DNA from: a virus | Length of the DNA stretch: 35,299 bases | Reading direction: 5' to 3' (one strand) | Virus record (IMG/VR): IMGVR_UViG_3300012988_000027 | Span: 1 to 35,299 of that record | In this document: positions 2-34,836 of the stretch, piece by piece | Layout of the letters: each line of letters opens with the position of its first letter | Position numbering within the stretch: position 1 is the stretch's first letter | Position numbers and translations under genes: made by a program | The notes under the pieces: model-generated | Seen by the model: the letters and a program-made list of their open reading frames with translations, nothing else | Database searches by the model: none | Told to the model about the DNA's origin: nothing

Positions 2-982
2 GCGGAGGGCGTACCTCTCACGGCTGGACAGCGCACAGGTAGCCAAGGCCTTCGATACGCTGAGTCTGAACTTGGTGGAAGCCGTGCAGCCTCTATCATG
101 GATGATCAGGCGCGGGCGTTTACTGAGGCCGCTACATCTCGTGCAGGGATGCAGGGTATCGCAACACCTGACAACATGGCAGCGAATGCTCAGCGCCTTG
201 GTCAAGGTTTCCAAGATATCTCATCTCGCACCGCTCTCAATGGCGACATGCAGCTTGTCGGTGACTTGGGAGACGCTGTAGCTCGTCATGGACGTCTTCT
301 GGAGCCACAACAGCGCCAAGTTGTCACTGATCTTGCGGATGACATTCTAAACCGCGTGGCGACGGGTTCTATGCCGGGGGATGCGTATCAAGCTATCCGC
401 AGTGACCTCACACGCGCCGCTCAGAGCAATAAGCAGAATTCGCTAGGCTCTGCATACCGTGATATCCGTAACGCTCTCGATGACGCAATGTCTCGCTCCG
501 TATCGCCAGATGACGCAGCAGAGTGGGCAAGGTTGCGCCGTGAGTACGGGAACATGAAGGTTCTTGAGAAGGCCGCGAATGGTGCAGGTGAAGCGGCAGC
601 AATGGGAACAATCTCGCCAGCCCGATTGAGGCAGGCAGCGAGCGTGGGGCGGCAAGGTGCATCTTCTCGAAATGCCGGTGATTTTGATGAATTGGCCAAG
701 GCTGGTCAGGCAGTTATGTCTCCGTTGCCCAACTCTGGGACGGCAGGACGAATTCGCGCTCAGAACCTCGGTAGCGGCATTCTAGCGGGTGGCGGCGCTT
801 TGGCTGGCGGAATACCCGGCCTTGTAGCTGGTTTGCTTGCCCCTCAAATTGCCGGTTCCGCCCTCATGAGCCGAGCAGGTCAGGCTTACCTCACAAACCA
901 GTTAGCTCCTAGCATGAGCGCTATCGATCCACGCACACTCGCAGTTATCGAAAGCCTCATCGCAAACGAACAGGGAAGATGA
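2..982 (+). CDS. C-terminal part of a virion/DNA-ejection-like protein (5' end outside window)
   Basis: The frame is open from the first bases of the window with no stop upstream of the internal ATG at 98, so the gene starts outside the window. The visible 326 codons are rich in Ala, Gly, Gln and Arg and mostly helical. A Gly/Ala hydrophobic stretch (about 781-870, reading GILAGGGALAGGIPGLVAGL) lies near the C terminus. Long Ala/Gln-rich proteins ending in a small hydrophobic hairpin, next to tail fibre genes, are usual for internal virion or DNA-ejection proteins of short-tailed phages; that role is inferred from context. No enzymatic motif is visible in this part. Confidence 0.75.
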   Translation, partial: AEGVPLTAGQRTGSQGLRYAESELGGSRAASIMDDQARAFTEAATSRAGMQGIATPDNMAANAQRLGQGFQDISSRTALNGDMQLVGDLGDAVARHGRLLEPQQRQVVTDLADDILNRVATGSMPGDAYQAIRSDLTRAAQSNKQNSLGSAYRDIRNALDDAMSRSVSPDDAAEWARLRREYGNMKVLEKAANGAGEAAAMGTISPARLRQAASVGRQGASSRNAGDFDELAKAGQAVMSPLPNSGTAGRIRAQNLGSGILAGGGALAGGIPGLVAGLLAPQIAGSALMSRAGQAYLTNQLAPSMSAIDPRTLAVIESLIANEQGR

Positions 983-1043
983 CCACTGCAATGATGTGTG
1001 CTAGAACCATGAAACATTATAACATAACGGCAGGGCATAGCCA

Positions 1044-1898
1044 ATGAGTAGGGACAGCAACGGCAATGCGACGGTCAATAGAAATCCCGCAGTTTCCGGG
1101 CAGACTGTTCTGGCTGAACAGGTAAACGTGCCGTTCGCTGATATCCAGGCAATGCTCAATCTTGTTCTGTGGCGCGACGGTCTATCTCCCATGACCGGAA
1201 ACCTGAATATGAACGGGTTCAAGCTTGTCGGCACGGCAGAGGGAACGGCTGGTGGCGATACGGTTACTGTTGACCAGCTGAACGCTGCTATTGCGGCATT
1301 AACCCCAAAGACAGTTGCAACCGGCACTCTTCAGGCATTCCGCCGCAAAACTGCTCCATCTGGATGGCTTATCGAAGACGGCAAGACGATTGGAAGTGCG
1401 GCCTCTGGAGCAACTGGCCGAGCTAATGCTGACACTCAAGATCTATTCACCCTGTTATGGACAGAATTTACCAACACGGAATTGGTGATCCAGACAAGCG
1501 CAGGTGCGGCTTCTACTCGCGGTGCGTCTGCTGCTGCTGACTTTGCTGCTAACAAGCGTATGCCTCTGTTCGATAGTAGGACTCGCTTCCTACGCGGCTC
1601 TGACAATGGATTGGCTTTCGACGCCACTTTGGTTCCCGGCTTGAACCAAGATGATGTGATTAAAAACCACATTCACCCCATACCAAATCATAGTCATACC
1701 GTACCCTCTAACTCCAGAGGAGGGTACGGATCAGGCGGAAGCCGAGAAGGCTCGATAAACAGCAATACTTATGATGGTTACACATCTGATCCGATGACCA
1801 CAAGCAGCGCTACCATCACCCCACAAAACAATACAGGAGGGAGCGCACTAGAAACTAGGCCGCGCTCCTCTGTAGTGCTTTTCTGTATTAAACTATAG
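1044..1898 (+). CDS. tail fibre protein with collar-like domain and HxH motif
   Basis: 284 aa. The N terminus (FADIQAMLNLVLWRDGLSPM, then GNLNMNGFKLVGTAEGTAGG) is the usual fibre attachment module that appears before tail collar domains. The middle has the collar-like stretch TGTLQAFRRKTAPSGWLIEDG. Near residues 205-215 two HxH motifs (NHIHP and NHSH) resemble the metal-binding HxH of intertwined fibre tips. The C terminus ETRPRSSVVLFCIKL is the ending typical of phage collar proteins. Role: receptor-binding or distal tail structure. A 61-nt gap separates it from the preceding virion gene and only 8 nt separate it from the next fibre gene, so the two fibres are probably co-transcribed. Confidence 0.82.
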   Translation: MSRDSNGNATVNRNPAVSGQTVLAEQVNVPFADIQAMLNLVLWRDGLSPMTGNLNMNGFKLVGTAEGTAGGDTVTVDQLNAAIAALTPKTVATGTLQAFRRKTAPSGWLIEDGKTIGSAASGATGRANADTQDLFTLLWTEFTNTELVIQTSAGAASTRGASAAADFAANKRMPLFDSRTRFLRGSDNGLAFDATLVPGLNQDDVIKNHIHPIPNHSHTVPSNSRGGYGSGGSREGSINSNTYDGYTSDPMTTSSATITPQNNTGGSALETRPRSSVVLFCIKL

Positions 1899-1906
1899 GA
1901 TAACCA

Positions 1907-3604
1907 ATGGCTGACATTCGGATCTCGCAACTCCCTCTTGCTACAGGCGGGACAGCACCCGCTCCCGCTGATGTTGTGGCTCTAGATGGAACGACGACGC
2001 GGAAAGCTCCTCTTTCCTCATTGGCTGATGTTATCAGGCCTATGGCTAGCCAAGCTGAAGCAGAGGAGGGCGTTAATTCAGTTAATGGAATGTCGCCTTT
2101 AACCACTGCCCAGGCCATATCCGCACAAGGTGCATCCCTATTTGCCTCTTTTGCTCAAGGCGCTTTAGCTTCAACCGCCTTACAGCCTGGACAAGCTGCT
2201 ACATTAGCCCAAGGCGCAAAAGCAGATAGCGCCATGCAGCCAACAGTGTACGATCCTACGGGAATAGGTGCTGACGCTTTTTCCCTGTTCAATATGACAG
2301 GCTCGATTAATACGGCTCAAGTCGGACCTGAAATAAAAGCGACATCTGATGTTCTCATAACCGTGGGTGCGGGTGGAAACTACGCAACAATGAATCTAGC
2401 CATTGCGGCGGCTTCAAGGCTTGTCCTTCGACCCTATAAACAGAGTGGATTAACGGTAGAGATTCGTTTGCTTTCTGGATTTGTAATGGCGGAACAGGTC
2501 ATCGTGAAGCGCACTGACCTTTCTTTCATCACTATCACCAGCGTAGACCCTGAGGTGGTGATCGACCGAGCGTCTCTGACAATACAGGTGGATGGTGGAT
2601 CGCTGACCGACTATCCAGCATTCACTGCGATGGAGGGAGGTAAGCTCCCCCAGATCGAAGTTCTTTTCAACATGAATTCCGAAGGGGCGGTGAATGGTCA
2701 GTCGTTCATTTACTGCAAAGGCGTCGGATCTACCGCGTTTGTCGGTATAGGAAAAGGCTGCAAAAATGCGGCTGGGTCTGGCATTGAGGCCCGCTTCCAA
2801 GCCACTGTTAATGCATATCAAGCTGTTCTAACAGGCTGCCTCAGTCGTGCTATTTACGCTCTCCATCAGGGAAGGGTCTTTGCTGAAAGTGCTAACTGCT
2901 CTGGTTGCAAAGGCGATTTTGGCGTCTACGCTCTGATGGGTGGAGAAATCATGATCCGCAATGCAAACGTCTCAGGCAAGACCGGAGGTCCCGCGATATT
3001 CGCGAACCGGGGCGGGAAAATTATCGCCACCGAAGCTAACGCCAACACATGTTCTGGTCTAGCCTCCAATAATGGTGCGGTCACAGCCAGCGATGGGGGT
3101 GAGGTGGTGTTCGACGCGGGTACGGCAACCGGAGCAGTTGGTGGTAATGGTGTTGCTGCAACTAATGGAGGGGTGGTTGATGCCCGCATGGCGATTTGTA
3201 GCAGTGCAGCCCAAGATGGATTTTATGCAGCAGATGGCGGCAGAATCAATGCCGCTGGTGCGACAGCCAATAACTGTGCGCAGAGGGGGTTCTATGCTAC
3301 CGACCTCTCAGACATCAATGCCAATACAGGAGTGGCTACGGGTTGCGCCACTGGTGCACAGGCGGATTGGGGTTCTCGTATAAACGCACGAGGTGCCACC
3401 CTTACTGGGGCATCTGTGCGGGGCGTGGCGGCTAACCGGGGTGGGTACATCCACATCGGAACAGGTAATGCTCAGCGCGGCGGCTCTCCATCGGCAACTG
3501 ATATTGTTGTCCTGACCAACGGTAAGATTGATGCTCTAGGAGCCACCGGCGGGTTAAGCCAGACCGCTAATACCATCACCACCGCAGGTCTTATAAACCA
3601 GTAA
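1907..3604 (+). CDS. tail spike/fibre with right-handed beta-helix
   Basis: 565 aa. The N terminus (MADIRISQLPLATGG, then SSLADVIRP) is the short particle-binding module common in phage spikes. From about residue 145 (VGAGGNYATMNLAIAAA) a pectate-lyase-like parallel beta-helix begins. Residues 300-530 are short Gly/Asn/Ala-rich rungs with repeated patterns such as GG-(KRE)-I-x-A-x-x-A. The chain ends GGLSQTANTITTAGLINQ, an ending seen in phage spikes. Likely role: host-surface polysaccharide recognition, possibly depolymerisation; no catalytic residues can be assigned by eye. Starts at ATG 1907, 8 nt after the collar fibre. Confidence 0.8.
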   Translation: MADIRISQLPLATGGTAPAPADVVALDGTTTRKAPLSSLADVIRPMASQAEAEEGVNSVNGMSPLTTAQAISAQGASLFASFAQGALASTALQPGQAATLAQGAKADSAMQPTVYDPTGIGADAFSLFNMTGSINTAQVGPEIKATSDVLITVGAGGNYATMNLAIAAASRLVLRPYKQSGLTVEIRLLSGFVMAEQVIVKRTDLSFITITSVDPEVVIDRASLTIQVDGGSLTDYPAFTAMEGGKLPQIEVLFNMNSEGAVNGQSFIYCKGVGSTAFVGIGKGCKNAAGSGIEARFQATVNAYQAVLTGCLSRAIYALHQGRVFAESANCSGCKGDFGVYALMGGEIMIRNANVSGKTGGPAIFANRGGKIIATEANANTCSGLASNNGAVTASDGGEVVFDAGTATGAVGGNGVAATNGGVVDARMAICSSAAQDGFYAADGGRINAAGATANNCAQRGFYATDLSDINANTGVATGCATGAQADWGSRINARGATLTGASVRGVAANRGGYIHIGTGNAQRGGSPSATDIVVLTNGKIDALGATGGLSQTANTITTAGLINQ

Positions 3605-3617
3605 ATGGAGTTGTTCT

Positions 3618-4277
3618 ATGAACCGCGCAACCTTCTTCGCCTCAGTCCGCAAGTCAGTCTTCAACGGCTCTATGTCTCAGTCTCAGGTAGACGGGCTAGA
3701 GGCCATCCTAGACGCAGCCGCCAAGCTCGGCGTCACGGACATCCGAATGATTGCCTACGCCATGGCAACGCCCATGATCGAAACGGGCGGCACTTACGAA
3801 CCAATCACGGAAAACCTCAACTACTCCGTCGATGCCCTCAAGAGCAAATTCGGCAACCGTATCTCATCCGCCGATGCTGCGAAGTATGGCCGCACAGCCA
3901 TGCAGAAGGCTAACCAGGAAGCCATTGCCAACATCATCTATGGCGGCGAATGGGGAAAGAACAATCTCGGCAACACTCAACTTGGAGACGGATGGAAGTA
4001 TCGCGGGAGGTCGCTGGTCCAAACCACCGGGCGCAGAAACTACGCAAAGTTTGGCCTTGAAGAACACCCTGAAGATGCACTGCTTATTGCCAATGCCGCC
4101 GAAATCATGGTCAAGGGCATGCGTGACGGCTCCTTCACCGGCAAGAAGTTCTCCGACTACTTCGGGACCAATGCGCAGTGGGTGCAGGCTAGACGAATGA
4201 TTAATGGGCTAGACAAGGCGGAAGAGATCGCAGCATACGCTCAGAAATTCCACAACGCTCTCAAGGCTTCTTCCTAA
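3618..4277 (+). CDS. endolysin, GH19 (chitinase/lysozyme-like) fold
   Basis: 219 aa, close to the usual length for phage GH19 lysins. Residues 44-70 (MIAYAMATPMIETGGTYEPI then TENLNYS) match the GH19 core, with Glu55 in IETGG and Glu65 in TENLNYS as candidate catalytic acids. The later YRGRSLVQTTGRRNYAKFG segment matches the GH19 substrate-cleft region. It would cut peptidoglycan glycan strands from the periplasm. There is no N-terminal signal, so export would depend on the holin-like product nearby. Start ATG 3618 has a GGAG about 8 nt upstream. First gene of the lysis cassette. Confidence 0.88.
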   Translation: MNRATFFASVRKSVFNGSMSQSQVDGLEAILDAAAKLGVTDIRMIAYAMATPMIETGGTYEPITENLNYSVDALKSKFGNRISSADAAKYGRTAMQKANQEAIANIIYGGEWGKNNLGNTQLGDGWKYRGRSLVQTTGRRNYAKFGLEEHPEDALLIANAAEIMVKGMRDGSFTGKKFSDYFGTNAQWVQARRMINGLDKAEEIAAYAQKFHNALKASS

Positions 4278-23014: not shown

Positions 23015-23275
23015 ATGGCAGGCGGAAGGCCCCCAAAAGAGAAGAGCTTCGCAAACATGCTCAACATCGCTATCAAAGAAGCGGTGGAAGGAAAGGAGCA
23101 TACAAAGCTCAGAGCAGTAGCAGATGCCTTGGTTGATAAGGCTATGGCTGGCGATGTACAAGCGATCAAAGAGGTTGCAGACCGCCTAGATGGCAAGGTC
23201 GTTCAGGCTATCTCTGGAGATGAAGAGGGTGGGCCTGTGCAAATCATCATTAACCGCTTCACGGACGACAAGTGA
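23015..23275 (+). CDS. terS: terminase small subunit-like protein
   Basis: 86 aa. MAGGRPPKEKSFANMLNIAI at the N terminus is the GRPPK-type start of TerS/DUF5681-like proteins. Then HTKLRAVADALVDKAMAGDV, QAIKEVADRLDGKVVQAISG: the helix pattern of phage TerS that ends in 'AIKE(I/V)ADRLDGK..Q...'. It would recognise the packaging site and regulate TerL. The stop overlaps the TerL GTG (GTGA). It is short for a TerS; assignment rests on sequence pattern and position. Confidence 0.8.
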   Translation: MAGGRPPKEKSFANMLNIAIKEAVEGKEHTKLRAVADALVDKAMAGDVQAIKEVADRLDGKVVQAISGDEEGGPVQIIINRFTDDK

Positions 23276-25485
23276 CGACGATCACGCTTCCCAACGGGTG
23301 GAAGCCCAGACCATATCAGATGCCGATGTGGTCCTATCTCGAAAAAGGCGGCAAGCGAGCAATCGGCGCATGGCATCGTAGAGCAGGAAAAGACGACGTT
23401 CTACTAAACTGGACAGCCGTAGCCGCGTTCGAGCGCCCTGCATCATACTGGCATTGTCTGCCCGAATACTCCCAAGCAAGGAAAGCCATTTGGACCGCCG
23501 TTGACCCTATGACTGGCGTCAGGCGCATCGACCAAGCATTCCCGATGGATCTCCGGGCCAACACCAATGACCAGGAGATGTTCATACGCTTCAAAAACGG
23601 CTCTACATGGCAGTGTGTAGGGTCTGACCGATATAACAGCCTTGTAGGCGCTGGCGTGGCTGGCGTGACGTTCTCTGAGTTCGCATTGGCTAACCCAAGC
23701 GCATGGGCATATATCAGGCCCATGGTAGAGGCTAACGATGGATGGGCTGCGTTCATCTCTACGCCTCGTGGCCGCAACCACTTCAAAGACCTCATGGACA
23801 TGGCCGCGCGTAATAAGTCGTGGTTCCAAGAGGCGCTAGACGTTCATAAGACCGGCGCTCTATCATTGGAGCAGATTGAAGAGTCCAAGGCTGAGTATAT
23901 AGCTCTGTATGGCGAAGACCTAGGCACGGCTCAGTTCGATCAGGAATATCTCGTCTCCTTCAATGCCGCTATTCTCGGAGCTTTCTATGCTCGTGAGATG
24001 CAGAAGGTTCGTGCAGAGGGGCGTATCAGCGACACGCTCAAGGCGGTGGAAGGCAAGTCGGTCCACAGGGCTTGGGATATCGGCGTAAGGGATGACACAT
24101 CTATCTGGTGGTTCCAAGTTATCGGCGGCAGTGTCCATATCCTCGACTGCTATAGCCAGTCAGGCGTTGGCCTCGATCATTACGCTGATATCGTTCAGAA
24201 GCGCCGTGAGGAATACGGCTGGAAGGACGGCACAGACTACGTTCCGCACGATGCCAAGGTGAAGGAATGGACAAGCGGTCGTACTCGTGTAGAAACCATG
24301 ATGGAGTATGGGCTAAAACCGCAAGTCGTGCCTATGGCAACTAAGCTCGACGGTGTTAATGCGGTGCGTCGGACACTTCCTGTATGCATCTTCCATAGCC
24401 GTTGCGAGGCCGAGGGAATAGCCGCTCTTGAGCAGTACAGACGCGAGTGGGACGACGACAAGAAGGCGTTCAAGGCTAGTGAAGTACATGACTGGTCTAG
24501 CCATCTGTGTTTCACTGGTGATACTGAGGTATTGACGCGTAACGGAACGTATCGGATAATGGACCTCCCAGAAACAGGAGAGGTTCTTACACGATGCGGT
24601 TGGTCGCAATATCACAGCCCGCGCATGACGCGGAAAAATGCCCAACTTGTAGCGGTGCAGTTCTCAGACGGACTTACGGTGAAATGTACGCCGGATCATT
24701 CCTTCTTGACGGAGAGCGGGTGGAAATCCGCAGAGAGCCTAGAGATGGGTTCAAAGATCCTGTGTGCCTCGACCCCATCACGCAGTTTTTCAACGGCTAT
24801 CTATACCGCCTATACCCAAGCGACAGATACTTTGCGAAAGGTGGCTCTCGCCTTCACAGAGACGTTTGGAAGGACGCGTTCGGACCTATCCCAGAAGGTT
24901 GCCACATTCACCACAAGGACGACGATCCAGCAAACAACATGCTCCACAATTTGGAGTGCCTACCCCCAAGCGATCACATGCAGCGCACTCTCTCAAGTCG
25001 CAAAGGAAGAGGCTGGAAGTCTAAATTCACTGCTAACGCTCGCGAACGCGCGGCTGACTGGCACAGATCAGAAGAAGGTAGGCTCTGGCACAAGCGACAT
25101 GCTGAACGTACACAGTCATGGACAAAGTGGAAGCGAGAGCCAAAGGACTGCCTATCGTGTGGTGTCGAGTTTCAAGCGCTTGTTCGCAAGGGGCTTGCGC
25201 AAAAGTATTGCTCCGAGAACTGCAAAATGGCGCACTATCGAATGCGTAAGGTTCTTGAGCGAGACTGATGATGTCTGGTGCTTGACCGTTCCATCCGAGA
25301 GGTCGTTCGCCCTGTCAAACGGCGCTATAGTGCATAATTGCGATGCCTTCCGCTATCTATCGCTATCCTGGCGCAAGGCTGTTGTGGAGTATGAGCCTCC
25401 ACCGCGCCCTGAGATCGGCCACATGCCAAACACACTAGACGAGTGGATAGCTCCACCACTTGTTGAAAGACGCGGTAGACGGTGA
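23272..25485 (+). CDS. terL: terminase large subunit, interrupted by an intein
   Basis: 737 aa as encoded; 460 aa after removal of residues 413-689. ATPase: WHRRAGKDDVLLNW (Walker A-like, HRRAGKD), VAGVTFSEFALANPSAW (Walker B-like), FISTPRGRNHF (coupling motif). Nuclease: RAWDIGVRDDTSIWWFQ (first Asp), YVPHDAKVKEW (second), and HDWSSHL / CDAFRYLSLSW split by the intein, CDAFR carrying the third Asp. TerL cuts concatemers and pumps DNA into the prohead with the portal. The GTG start overlaps TerS. Spliced length is normal for the family. An HNH gene lies out of frame inside the intein. Confidence 0.93.
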   Translation: MTTITLPNGWKPRPYQMPMWSYLEKGGKRAIGAWHRRAGKDDVLLNWTAVAAFERPASYWHCLPEYSQARKAIWTAVDPMTGVRRIDQAFPMDLRANTNDQEMFIRFKNGSTWQCVGSDRYNSLVGAGVAGVTFSEFALANPSAWAYIRPMVEANDGWAAFISTPRGRNHFKDLMDMAARNKSWFQEALDVHKTGALSLEQIEESKAEYIALYGEDLGTAQFDQEYLVSFNAAILGAFYAREMQKVRAEGRISDTLKAVEGKSVHRAWDIGVRDDTSIWWFQVIGGSVHILDCYSQSGVGLDHYADIVQKRREEYGWKDGTDYVPHDAKVKEWTSGRTRVETMMEYGLKPQVVPMATKLDGVNAVRRTLPVCIFHSRCEAEGIAALEQYRREWDDDKKAFKASEVHDWSSHLCFTGDTEVLTRNGTYRIMDLPETGEVLTRCGWSQYHSPRMTRKNAQLVAVQFSDGLTVKCTPDHSFLTESGWKSAESLEMGSKILCASTPSRSFSTAIYTAYTQATDTLRKVALAFTETFGRTRSDLSQKVATFTTRTTIQQTTCSTIWSAYPQAITCSALSQVAKEEAGSLNSLLTLANARLTGTDQKKVGSGTSDMLNVHSHGQSGSESQRTAYRVVSSFKRLFARGLRKSIAPRTAKWRTIECVRFLSETDDVWCLTVPSERSFALSNGAIVHNCDAFRYLSLSWRKAVVEYEPPPRPEIGHMPNTLDEWIAPPLVERRGRR
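24508..25338 (+). mobile_element. intein in TerL (277 aa), class-1-like
   Basis: Block A: Cys413 in CFTGDTEVLTRNGTYRIMDL. Block B: GLTVKCTPDHSFLTESG with Thr473 and His476. Block F: DDVWCLTVPSERSFALSNG. Block G: AIVHN with His688-Asn689, followed by extein Cys690. Block F has Cys at the place where Asp is common. It should self-splice to join HL and CDAFR. No in-frame endonuclease is seen: residues about 491-655 are Ser/Thr/Ala-rich sequence that is the alternate-frame reading of the nested HNH gene. Start and end are placed at the Cys413 and Asn689 codons. Confidence 0.92.
24594..25268 (+). CDS. HNH homing endonuclease nested out of frame within the intein
   Basis: 224 aa, shifted by -1 relative to the TerL frame and lying entirely inside the intein. 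Core: GYLYRLYPSDRYFAKGG, RLHRDVWKDAFGPIPEGCHI, HHKDDDPANNMLHNLECLPP, SDHMQ; catalytic His106-His107, Asn115/Asn119, His128. C-terminal zinc finger: CLSCG (186-189) and KYCSENC (206, 210), then its own stop. ATG 24594 has AGGAGAGG upstream; ATG 24684 is a shorter option. The first about 50 residues overlap intein block B and look unlike the family, so they may be filler. It would cut intein-less terL alleles and drive homing. Confidence 0.9.
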   Translation: MRLVAISQPAHDAEKCPTCSGAVLRRTYGEMYAGSFLLDGERVEIRREPRDGFKDPVCLDPITQFFNGYLYRLYPSDRYFAKGGSRLHRDVWKDAFGPIPEGCHIHHKDDDPANNMLHNLECLPPSDHMQRTLSSRKGRGWKSKFTANARERAADWHRSEEGRLWHKRHAERTQSWTKWKREPKDCLSCGVEFQALVRKGLAQKYCSENCKMAHYRMRKVLERD

Positions 25486-25489
25486 TATA

Positions 25490-25765
25490 AGGGATGCATC
25501 ATTGGTTCCGAGGGATTGTGGATTCATGGTCGCGAGGCAACGTTCGAACGCCAATGTTCTCAAGTCCCGCAAGGGCAGCTAGGGTTGATCGCCTAGCTTA
25601 GTAATTCCAGCCGACGCGCTTCCGACAGTCAGGCAGGTCTCAAGATGCTCGGAGCGTGGTAGCAGAGTGCAAGTGCCGGAAACGGTGGAGACGGCTAGAT
25701 GCTACAGGGACGCGAAACCGATCAGTACGTGAAGTGACTAAGGCTTCGCAGAATATCGGCCCAAT
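25490..25765 (+). ncRNA. candidate structured RNA downstream of terL
   Basis: No gene fits 25486-25893. Helices visible: CATTGG 25500-25505 with CCAATG 25551-25556 (extended by TTC/GAA across a bulge); CCC-GCAA-GGG 25566-25575 (GNRA); AGCTAGG 25577-25583 with CCTAGCT 25592-25598; ATGCT/AGCGT 25645-25657; GTAGCA 25659-25664 with TGCTAC 25700-25705, enclosing CCG-GAAA-CGG 25676-25685 (GNRA); CCGAT 25718-25722 with ATCGG 25755-25759, enclosing GTGAAG/CTTCGC 25729-25749. It is not a tRNA and I cannot place a group I core. It may be a 3'-UTR RNA, a packaging-associated RNA or an unknown class. Confidence 0.5.
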
Positions 25766-25831
25766 CTCCCCTCCCAAGCATATTCCCCTATAACGCAGAT
25801 AATAAAAACTATCCGCTACACATTTAAACTA

Positions 25832-33491: not shown

Positions 33492-34508
33492 ATGCCTCGC
33501 ATCACAGAAGACCGCCAGTACGGCCAGATTCTGACTGCATCCATCGCCAACTACAGCGAGACGATCCAGGATCTAGTCTTTAACGCAACCCCGCTCTGGG
33601 CAATCCTCCGCGAAAACGGTGTTATCAAGCCGTATGACGGTGGCCCGGAAATCCGCATCCCGCTTGAGATCGATACCCTCGATACCCAGTGGTTTACGGG
33701 TTACGACAAAATCCGCATCTCCCCGAAGGAACTGCTCAACGCCGCGTACTTCACTCCGAAGCGTGTCGTTGCTCCGTTCTCTCTGACGGGTACGGAACTC
33801 CTCTATAACCGTGGCCGCGCTCAGCGCATCAACATCATGCAGATGTATCTCCGCAATGCAGAGAAGAGCATGACGGAAGCCATGGAAGAAGCCGCATTCG
33901 GTGATGGTACTGCCGATGGTGGCCGTCAGATGATCGGCTTTGCCGGTGCTATCCCGATTGTTCCGGGCGCTGGCACCTACGGCGGCATCGACCGCGCTCA
34001 GAACCCGATCTGGCAGACCACCACGTATAGCGTTCCTGGTGGTGACTTCCCTGATATCGGTACGACGTGGGATTCGACCACTGCTCGCCCGATCCTCTCG
34101 GACATCATGCGTCGTCACTCTCGTGGCCGTCGCTATGCTGACCTTCTGGTGGCAGACAACAACTCCTACCGCGCAATCGAAGACTCCATGGTAGCCCATC
34201 AGCGTATCGTTGATAGCGCCCGCCTTGGCCGTCTTGGCTTCCGCGCTCTTGAGGTTGTCACGTCGGTTGGTCCCGCCGCAGTCGTACCGGCTGTTGGTCT
34301 TGGTACTGTTATGCCGGACAACACCATCTTCGGCCTCGATACCGAAGCTCTGGCTATCTACTACCACCCGGATAACAACATGGTTCCGTTCCATGAGGGC
34401 GACGGTGCCAAGCCGATCAATCAGGACGCAATCGCTCAGGGCGTAGTTTGGACTGGTGAAATGGTACTCGCCAACCCTCGCTACACTTGGCGCTTGATCA
34501 CGGCTTAA
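33492..34508 (+). CDS. major capsid protein
   Basis: 338 aa. MPRITEDRQYGQILTASIAN then YSETIQDLVFNATPLWAILR, PLEIDTLDTQWFTGYDKIRI, SPKELLNAAYFTPKRVVAPF and NRGRAQRINIMQMYLRNAEK. It is an HK97-fold-type coat protein in pattern: N-arm, P-domain helix with 'S....E......G', then a long A-domain. Directly downstream of scaffold and upstream of a decoration protein. Codon use is strongly biased toward common codons, as expected for an abundant structural protein. Confidence 0.9.
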   Translation: MPRITEDRQYGQILTASIANYSETIQDLVFNATPLWAILRENGVIKPYDGGPEIRIPLEIDTLDTQWFTGYDKIRISPKELLNAAYFTPKRVVAPFSLTGTELLYNRGRAQRINIMQMYLRNAEKSMTEAMEEAAFGDGTADGGRQMIGFAGAIPIVPGAGTYGGIDRAQNPIWQTTTYSVPGGDFPDIGTTWDSTTARPILSDIMRRHSRGRRYADLLVADNNSYRAIEDSMVAHQRIVDSARLGRLGFRALEVVTSVGPAAVVPAVGLGTVMPDNTIFGLDTEALAIYYHPDNNMVPFHEGDGAKPINQDAIAQGVVWTGEMVLANPRYTWRLITA

Positions 34509-34521
34509 AGGAGTCAAAAAG

Positions 34522-34836
34522 ATGGTTTTCCGTATCACACCTTCTCTGGGCATGGATGTAGAACAGTACACCCAGAAGCCTTATTGGGATCCGCCGTTCA
34601 TTACGGATATGTCCCAGCGTCCCGGTGATGCTGTTCTTGGTTCTGACGGTCATAAGTATGTGCTGGTAAAGGCGCATGCAAACCTGACCGGTGCAGGCCA
34701 GTTCGGCATCAACGAAACGACATGGGTAACGACTACGAACGCATCTGGCGGCTGGGTTCTCCCCGGCACTGTCCAGACTGAGGGCGGCGTTCTTCAGAAC
34801 GATTTCTTCCTCGCTCGTAGGAATACTCTTGACTAA
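34522..34836 (+). CDS. head decoration/stabilisation-like protein, 104 aa
   Basis: MVFRITPSLGMDVEQYTQKP then QRPGDAVLGSDGHKYVLVKA, HANLTGAGQFGINETTWVTT. A small beta-rich protein (DG..Y..V.A...L) immediately after the coat gene, the usual position of decoration proteins. AAAGGAG lies upstream of ATG 34522. Assignment by context. Confidence 0.7.
   Translation: MVFRITPSLGMDVEQYTQKPYWDPPFITDMSQRPGDAVLGSDGHKYVLVKAHANLTGAGQFGINETTWVTTTNASGGWVLPGTVQTEGGVLQNDFFLARRNTLD

Follow-up and report, generated by a model that had tools for sequence, protein, structure and literature searches.

An HNH endonuclease gene nested out of frame within a phage terminase intein: a probable composite homing element

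Textbook inteins carry an endonuclease fused in frame with the splicing domain, or have lost it. The terminase large subunit (TerL) gene of the IMG/VR virus record IMGVR_UViG_3300012988_000027, analysed here over positions 1 to 35,299 (35,299 nucleotides, hereafter the window), raises the question of how else splicing and homing can be combined. Its reading frame encodes an intein, and within the DNA of that intein, in the -1 frame, lies a complete gene for a putative HNH endonuclease with a stop codon that precedes the intein end; the endonuclease is thus not joined to the splicing domain as in a canonical full-length intein. We find that a composite homing element, comprising two genes in one DNA segment, is very probably the best explanation of this locus.

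The host gene and the parts of its intein are as follows.

23272..25485, + strand: terL, terminase large subunit precursor with intein, 737 amino acids (similarity to annotated TerL and to PHROG)
24508..25338, + strand: intein, 277 amino acids, Cys1 to His-Asn / Cys+1 (Pfam and NCBIfam matches; intein-less homologue)
24508..24771, + strand: N-terminal Hint half of the intein (blocks A and B), AlphaFold predicted local distance difference test score (pLDDT) ~96, Foldseek matches to DnaB and gp41-1 inteins
24772..25227, + strand: TerL-frame linker across the HNH gene, ~150 amino acids, pLDDT mostly 30-50, protein not conserved
25228..25338, + strand: C-terminal Hint half of the intein (blocks F and G)

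The terL frame is uninterrupted by stops over its full length. Its N-extein is 68% identical to the annotated TerL of Rhizobium phage RHph_I3_18, and the product matches the PHROG terminase large subunit family phrog_7579 (3.6e-5). The RHph_I3_18 protein has an empty site (KASEVHDWTSHLADAFRYLAMSWR), relative to which the intein is a precise in-frame insertion into the RNase H-like nuclease motif (HDWSSHL/CDAFRY, the slash marking the junction). The intein runs from Cys1 (24508-24510) to a terminal Asn whose codon ends at 25338, with Cys+1 from 25339 onward; the original prediction, made from the letters alone, had placed the intein and its four blocks at these coordinates in a stop-free TerL frame, and the profile matches bear it out. 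Matches in that frame are to Pfam Intein_splicing (1.6e-12) and to two NCBIfam models of intein termini, TIGR01445 (N-terminal, 3.4e-7) and TIGR01443 (C-terminal, at cut-off). Blocks A and B read CFTGDTEVLTRNG... and CTPDHSF, and blocks F and G read DVWCLTVP... and FALSNGAIVHN/C. The protein accordingly has the N-terminal Cys (CFTGDTEV...), the TxxH of block B (CTPDH) and the C-terminal His-Asn followed by Cys (IVHN/C), and these hallmarks are conserved over 42 aligned relatives. AlphaFold models the Hint halves confidently (residues 1-88 and 241-277) around a disordered middle, and Foldseek matches the model to the gp41-1, Ssp DnaB and Mtu RecA inteins, as expected of a Hint fold. By motif and model, this intein has a splicing-competent anatomy and would be expected to splice. 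The linker is weakly conserved as protein in the host (terL) frame, and its changes track the HNH gene.

The nested gene and its signals lie on the same strand.

24576..24584, + strand: Shine-Dalgarno-like (SD) sequence AGGAGAGGT, 9 nt before the HNH ATG, in the intein codons for TGEV
24594..25268, + strand: nested HNH endonuclease gene, 224 amino acids, frame -1 relative to terL, with its own ATG and TGA
24594..24773, + strand: dual-coded segment, intein N domain plus HNH N-terminal extension (CPTC...YGEM.AGS), with flattened codon-position rates and frozen wobble bases
24849..24983, + strand: HNH_3 catalytic domain (CHIHHKDDDPANNMLHNLECL), by HNH_3 profile and invariant residues
25149..25223, + strand: C-terminal zinc finger (CxxC...CxxxC) of the HNH protein, by invariant cysteines

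The gene runs from the ATG at 24594 to the TGA at 25266-25268, 70 nt short of the intein end. The translation matches HNH_3 (4.5e-14) and PHROG HNH families (2e-24), which upholds the earlier description of a complete 224-codon HNH gene with catalytic core, zinc finger and its own stop. H46, H47, N55, N59 and L60 (core numbering) are invariant in the alignment of the core, and AlphaFold is confident from about residue 46. The product thus has both the HNH motif and the zinc-finger DNA-binding region of HNH homing endonucleases.

Is this arrangement peculiar to the window? A tblastn search with the HNH core showed that Tetrasphaera phage TJE1, Acinetobacter phage Highwayman and phage LS06-2018-MD07 have terL annotated straight over an out-of-frame HNH gene. 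HNH-based scans of IMG/VR and species genomes yielded 92 nested loci, 72 of them distinct at 95% nucleotide identity. A further 43 loci came from a search that used only the intein N block and no HNH sequence, and 40 of these carry a nested HNH gene in the same frame. Together, 104 loci distinct at 95% share the architecture of an intein and a nested HNH gene in different frames. The frame of the HNH gene relative to the terminase is identical in all nested loci, and its stop codon precedes the intein end in every classified locus. The host genes checked are terminase large subunits of the Terminase_3, Terminase_6 and other types, and the loci span 33-63% guanine-cytosine (GC) content. The position of the intein within the nuclease motif differs: the window has HDWSSHL/C..CDAFRY, locus L019 has HDW/C..CSHLSDAFRY, TJE1 has DHI/CDA and Highwayman has IDA/CRYA. 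Because the arrangement recurs in 104 distinct loci in diverse phage sequences, an intein with an out-of-frame HNH gene is a real, widespread type of mobile element rather than a sequencing artefact. One of the host genes (L027, IMGVR_UViG_3300048762_000055, open reading frame 125-3679) apparently holds two inteins, an extra intein-like insertion (CLTGDTEIYTKN...VVHN) upstream and the nested-HNH intein at the nuclease site.

The frame relation can be examined through stop codons. In the window alone, about 2 stops would be expected in the TerL frame over the HNH core, and the probability of finding none is 0.06-0.08; the open frame is only mildly unusual, since stops are naturally scarce in the -1 frame of this HNH family. 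The original assertion that some 165 open codons were improbable without selection is therefore weak for this sequence by itself and gains overwhelming force only from its homologues. Over 11,457 HNH codons in the 72 distinct loci the host frame contains 0 stops, where permutation of synonymous codons within each gene predicts 97 and host codon usage predicts 173, although these loci are interrelated and not independent, such that the counts overstate the statistics and make a strong case without exact probabilities. The third frame shows no depletion (913 stops vs 919 expected), and host-frame depletion is absent among free-standing HNH relatives. Kinship of the loci fails to account for only one of two frames staying open at 33-63% GC. 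The use of the -1 frame alone is explained by the near absence of stops from the HNH gene in that frame and their abundance in the other. Two GC-rich free-standing HNH genes with no intein (L007:2337-3014 and L014:2044-2718) have a fully open alternative frame, and for this reason an open alternative frame alone is weak evidence of nesting.

Codon-position differences were compared between close pairs in the window's clade. For host positions 1/2/3, the difference rates are.22/.17/.40 before the HNH start,.18/.23/.28 where the intein N domain overlaps the HNH N-terminal extension,.21/.49/.26 in the HNH core and.19/.15/.57 after the HNH stop. Since host position 2 is HNH position 3, the fastest codon position changes frame at the HNH start and stop, and these rates show a real, independently translated gene; the flattened rates in the overlap are as expected under constraint on both frames. 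A pseudogene is ruled out by the HNH third-position rates and the invariant motifs. A further signature of such a gene is that host wobble bases are frozen, as T in 35/35 under HNH Cys16 (34% expected) and Cys19 (17% expected), and as A under HNH Met31 in 97% (20% expected). Only such extreme positions are informative, because wobble conservation is raised beyond the overlap too (baseline 0.63 vs 0.32 expected).

Where, then, would translation of the nested gene begin? Most of the 44 loci in the window's clade use the start codon at Cys1+86, whose A is a host wobble base and is present in 41/44 loci against a background of 16%, while the host residue there varies among Pro, Leu, Ser, Gln and others. 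The SD sequence upstream is written in Gly-Glu-Val codons. Over 35 loci its mean pairing energy is -9.3 kcal/mol, vs -3.8 at an internal ATG (+176) that is just as conserved; all 35 starts reach a pairing of -7, as do 7% of background positions. Most loci without the Cys1+86 ATG have one at +92 or +101. In a second, more diverse group the HNH start lies close to the core and frequently has a strong SD (as low as -13.5). Conservation of the start in the window's clade shows that the nested HNH gene has an independent start signal, its own SD and ATG. The homologues and the codon-position analysis confirm the earlier picture of a mini-intein and a complete, independent HNH gene that are linked as DNA and uncoupled in translation, the terL frame reading through as an arbitrary linker.

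Degenerate relatives of the element also occur. Two loci (L148 and L150) are mini-inteins from which HNH has been deleted in the host frame, and L150 has also lost the remaining HNH start and a Cys; in a third (L127) HNH is truncated. Fractured forms, whose host gene is in two open reading frames, are represented by two further members of the HNH/intein group: L116 and L013 (Lactobacillus phage CL2). In L116 a stop closes the intein N half, the HNH gene stands apart from it, and the C half, in its usual frame, overlaps the HNH end; the parts of L013 are ordered likewise. These are the only loci with a split host gene, which the window and the 72 analysed nested loci lack. Both (L013:1658-2711 and L116 ~2116-3230) apparently represent unannotated fractured terL genes with the intein C half and C-extein in a further open reading frame overlapping the HNH end. 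With its HNH-less, truncated and fractured relatives, the nested-HNH intein fits into a homing life cycle.

HNH and intein distances are correlated (Mantel 0.76 overall, 0.33 in clade 1), and in clade 1 the correlation is somewhat higher than that of either one with TerL, a pattern that seems consistent with a unit crossing TerL lineages. The window's clade forms a single group in the HNH tree (100/100), and the other nested genes are intermixed with free-standing ones. The tree is unrooted as to direction of change. The suggestion that a free-standing endonuclease gene had invaded a mini-intein is plausible, its direction not proven. Free-standing HNH relatives adjoin terL or terS in many unrelated phages; those collected here (L005-L009 and L011-L014) come from phages BP10, Poludnitsa, SN1, EauM-23, FBPa53, PhiSTP1, CL2 and PAE1, and in PAE1, SN1 and FBPa53 the gene stands directly between terL and the next structural gene.

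In the mechanism that we propose, the two Hint halves and the long unstructured linker would form the intein in the terL frame, which would splice out and leave TerL intact; the ~150-residue read-through linker would hide the HNH gene from the TerL product. The zinc-finger HNH protein would be translated separately in the -1 frame, from the ribosome-binding site within the intein N domain. It would presumably cut intein-less terL at the nuclease-motif codons, and repair of the cut gene would copy the entire intein/HNH segment. Several points, in addition to the kinship of the loci, weigh against this proposal. TerL splicing, HNH protein production and HNH cleavage are inferred, specific cleavage of the unoccupied terL site from distribution only. 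The HNH N-terminal extension is predicted by AlphaFold to be disordered, and a zinc-ribbon reading of it has a single CxxC pair at low pLDDT. Finally, some clade-2 loci have their ATG at +218 with little or no SD, and their start evidence is weak; these include L112, which comes from a Bacteroides genome, where SD sequences are expected to be used only weakly.

Other explanations must be set against the composite element. The least credible, to the point of being negligible, is a sequencing or assembly error in which two compensating indels disguise an ordinary in-frame intein-HNH fusion. Known endonuclease inteins do have the endonuclease in frame, but the same frame relation holds in the 104 loci and in several sequenced phage genomes, every classified locus has its HNH stop upstream of where the intein ends, and host-frame stops are depleted; neither a closed HNH frame nor compensating indels turned up among the homologues, and for the family this reading is refuted. 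It is very unlikely that programmed frameshifting yields a fusion of TerL-N, intein-N and HNH, with HNH no independent gene. A run of five T is indeed present at the meeting point of the frames (24786-24790), as the original prediction said when it raised rare frameshifting there, but the run is missing in relatives that keep a nested HNH (CAGTATTTC or similar instead), so that no conserved slippery site marks the frame junction. Moreover, the HNH frame in relatives has a conserved start codon and SD, the codon-position signals shift at that start, and a fusion would stop at the HNH stop and waste TerL.

Rather less remote, though still improbable, is the idea that the product of the nested HNH gene works with the terminase in packaging, as has been argued for terminase-associated HNH proteins of phages, and is not a homing enzyme. 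Free-standing relatives lie next to terL or terS in many phages, and such a role has been suggested for brucellaphages (PMC4422536). Against this stand the patchy distribution, with intein-less TerL relatives lacking HNH at the site and mini-inteins having lost it, and the nearest solved structure to the HNH core in Foldseek, that of I-HmuI, which is a homing enzyme, though the match is weak (E 9e-3). The rival to which we give most room, and which we nonetheless regard as unlikely, concerns origin: HNH may formerly have been fused in frame, an ancient frameshift having since displaced it, instead of arriving as a free gene. The single relative frame of all nested loci fits that history, whereas free-standing and nested HNH genes mix in the tree (nested Highwayman beside free-standing BP10, 98/96), HNH has its own start and stop, and the scans turned up no in-frame intermediate.

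How does the composite element compare with known systems? Group I introns with nested homing endonuclease genes are likewise self-removing elements with a separately translated endonuclease in a separate module, but they splice at the RNA level; because the window's element would splice as protein, its nested gene must be readable in the host frame too. Fractured genes, reportedly described by Dassa et al. in 2009, a paper that PMC10448857 cites, as split inteins around a free-standing endonuclease gene, resemble the window in that splicing halves flank an independently encoded homing endonuclease, and differ in that their host gene is in two trans-splicing open reading frames whereas the window's host frame reads through. 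Mycobacteriophage TerL inteins (PMC5050341) also place a Hint domain in a phage terminase with an endonuclease for mobility, but they are canonical inteins, a kind whose LAGLIDADG or HNH endonuclease is fused in frame, and sit in the ATPase domain, whereas the window-type inteins sit in the nuclease domain.

Prior art on the arrangement itself is thin. In a 2025 paper (PMC11855218), HNH genes are reported to sit out of frame in phage methylases, lacking any splicing domain and with an unknown mode of translation. That ShiLan case is like the window in having a complete zinc-finger HNH gene in another frame of a phage gene, an open host frame and a disjunct distribution. Its host protein retains the insert, and with no ribosome-binding site found, leaderless initiation was proposed; in the window, intein domains are present, a Hint intein would remove the insert, and the SD and ATG are conserved. 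A single sentence in a 2015 brucellaphage paper mentions an intein-encoded HNH gene out of frame within terL (PMC4422536); it belongs to a paragraph of genome comparison with no family, mechanism or selection analysis, and we set it beside the window by description only. In the literature we found no description of nested-HNH inteins as a family, of how widespread they are, of their ribosome-binding site or of their connection with fractured inteins, a statement that does not extend to a 2025 preprint on non-canonical actinobacteriophage intein architecture (bioRxiv 2025.01.02.630785).

Elsewhere in the window, a gap of ~300 bases after terL (25486-25800) has no clear gene and the look of a structured RNA; that candidate was rejected, with no Rfam match, a fold z-score of +0.64 and no phage match. 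A 332-codon open frame at 33573-34571 (- strand), antisense to the major head protein gene (33492-34508), has no family match and is probably a composition effect.

In the composite element, one stretch of DNA encodes, in two frames, one protein for splicing and another for homing. Splicing need not limit the supply of nuclease, and the two functions can decay separately. The nested form bridges two others, the free-standing homing gene next to terL and the fractured split intein. There is about an even chance that out-of-frame nesting is the normal, long-lived form of this class of phage terminase inteins, with a nuclease ribosome-binding site that evolved within the splicing domain, and that mini-inteins lacking HNH and fractured split inteins both derive from it. 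The element shows how the synonymous bases of one protein's gene can accommodate a ribosome-binding site for another, and annotation restricted to one frame misses nested nucleases. Natural Hint scaffolds are seemingly tolerant of an arbitrary insert of ~150 amino acids, which is useful for intein engineering, and nested-HNH inteins are testable in isolated phages.
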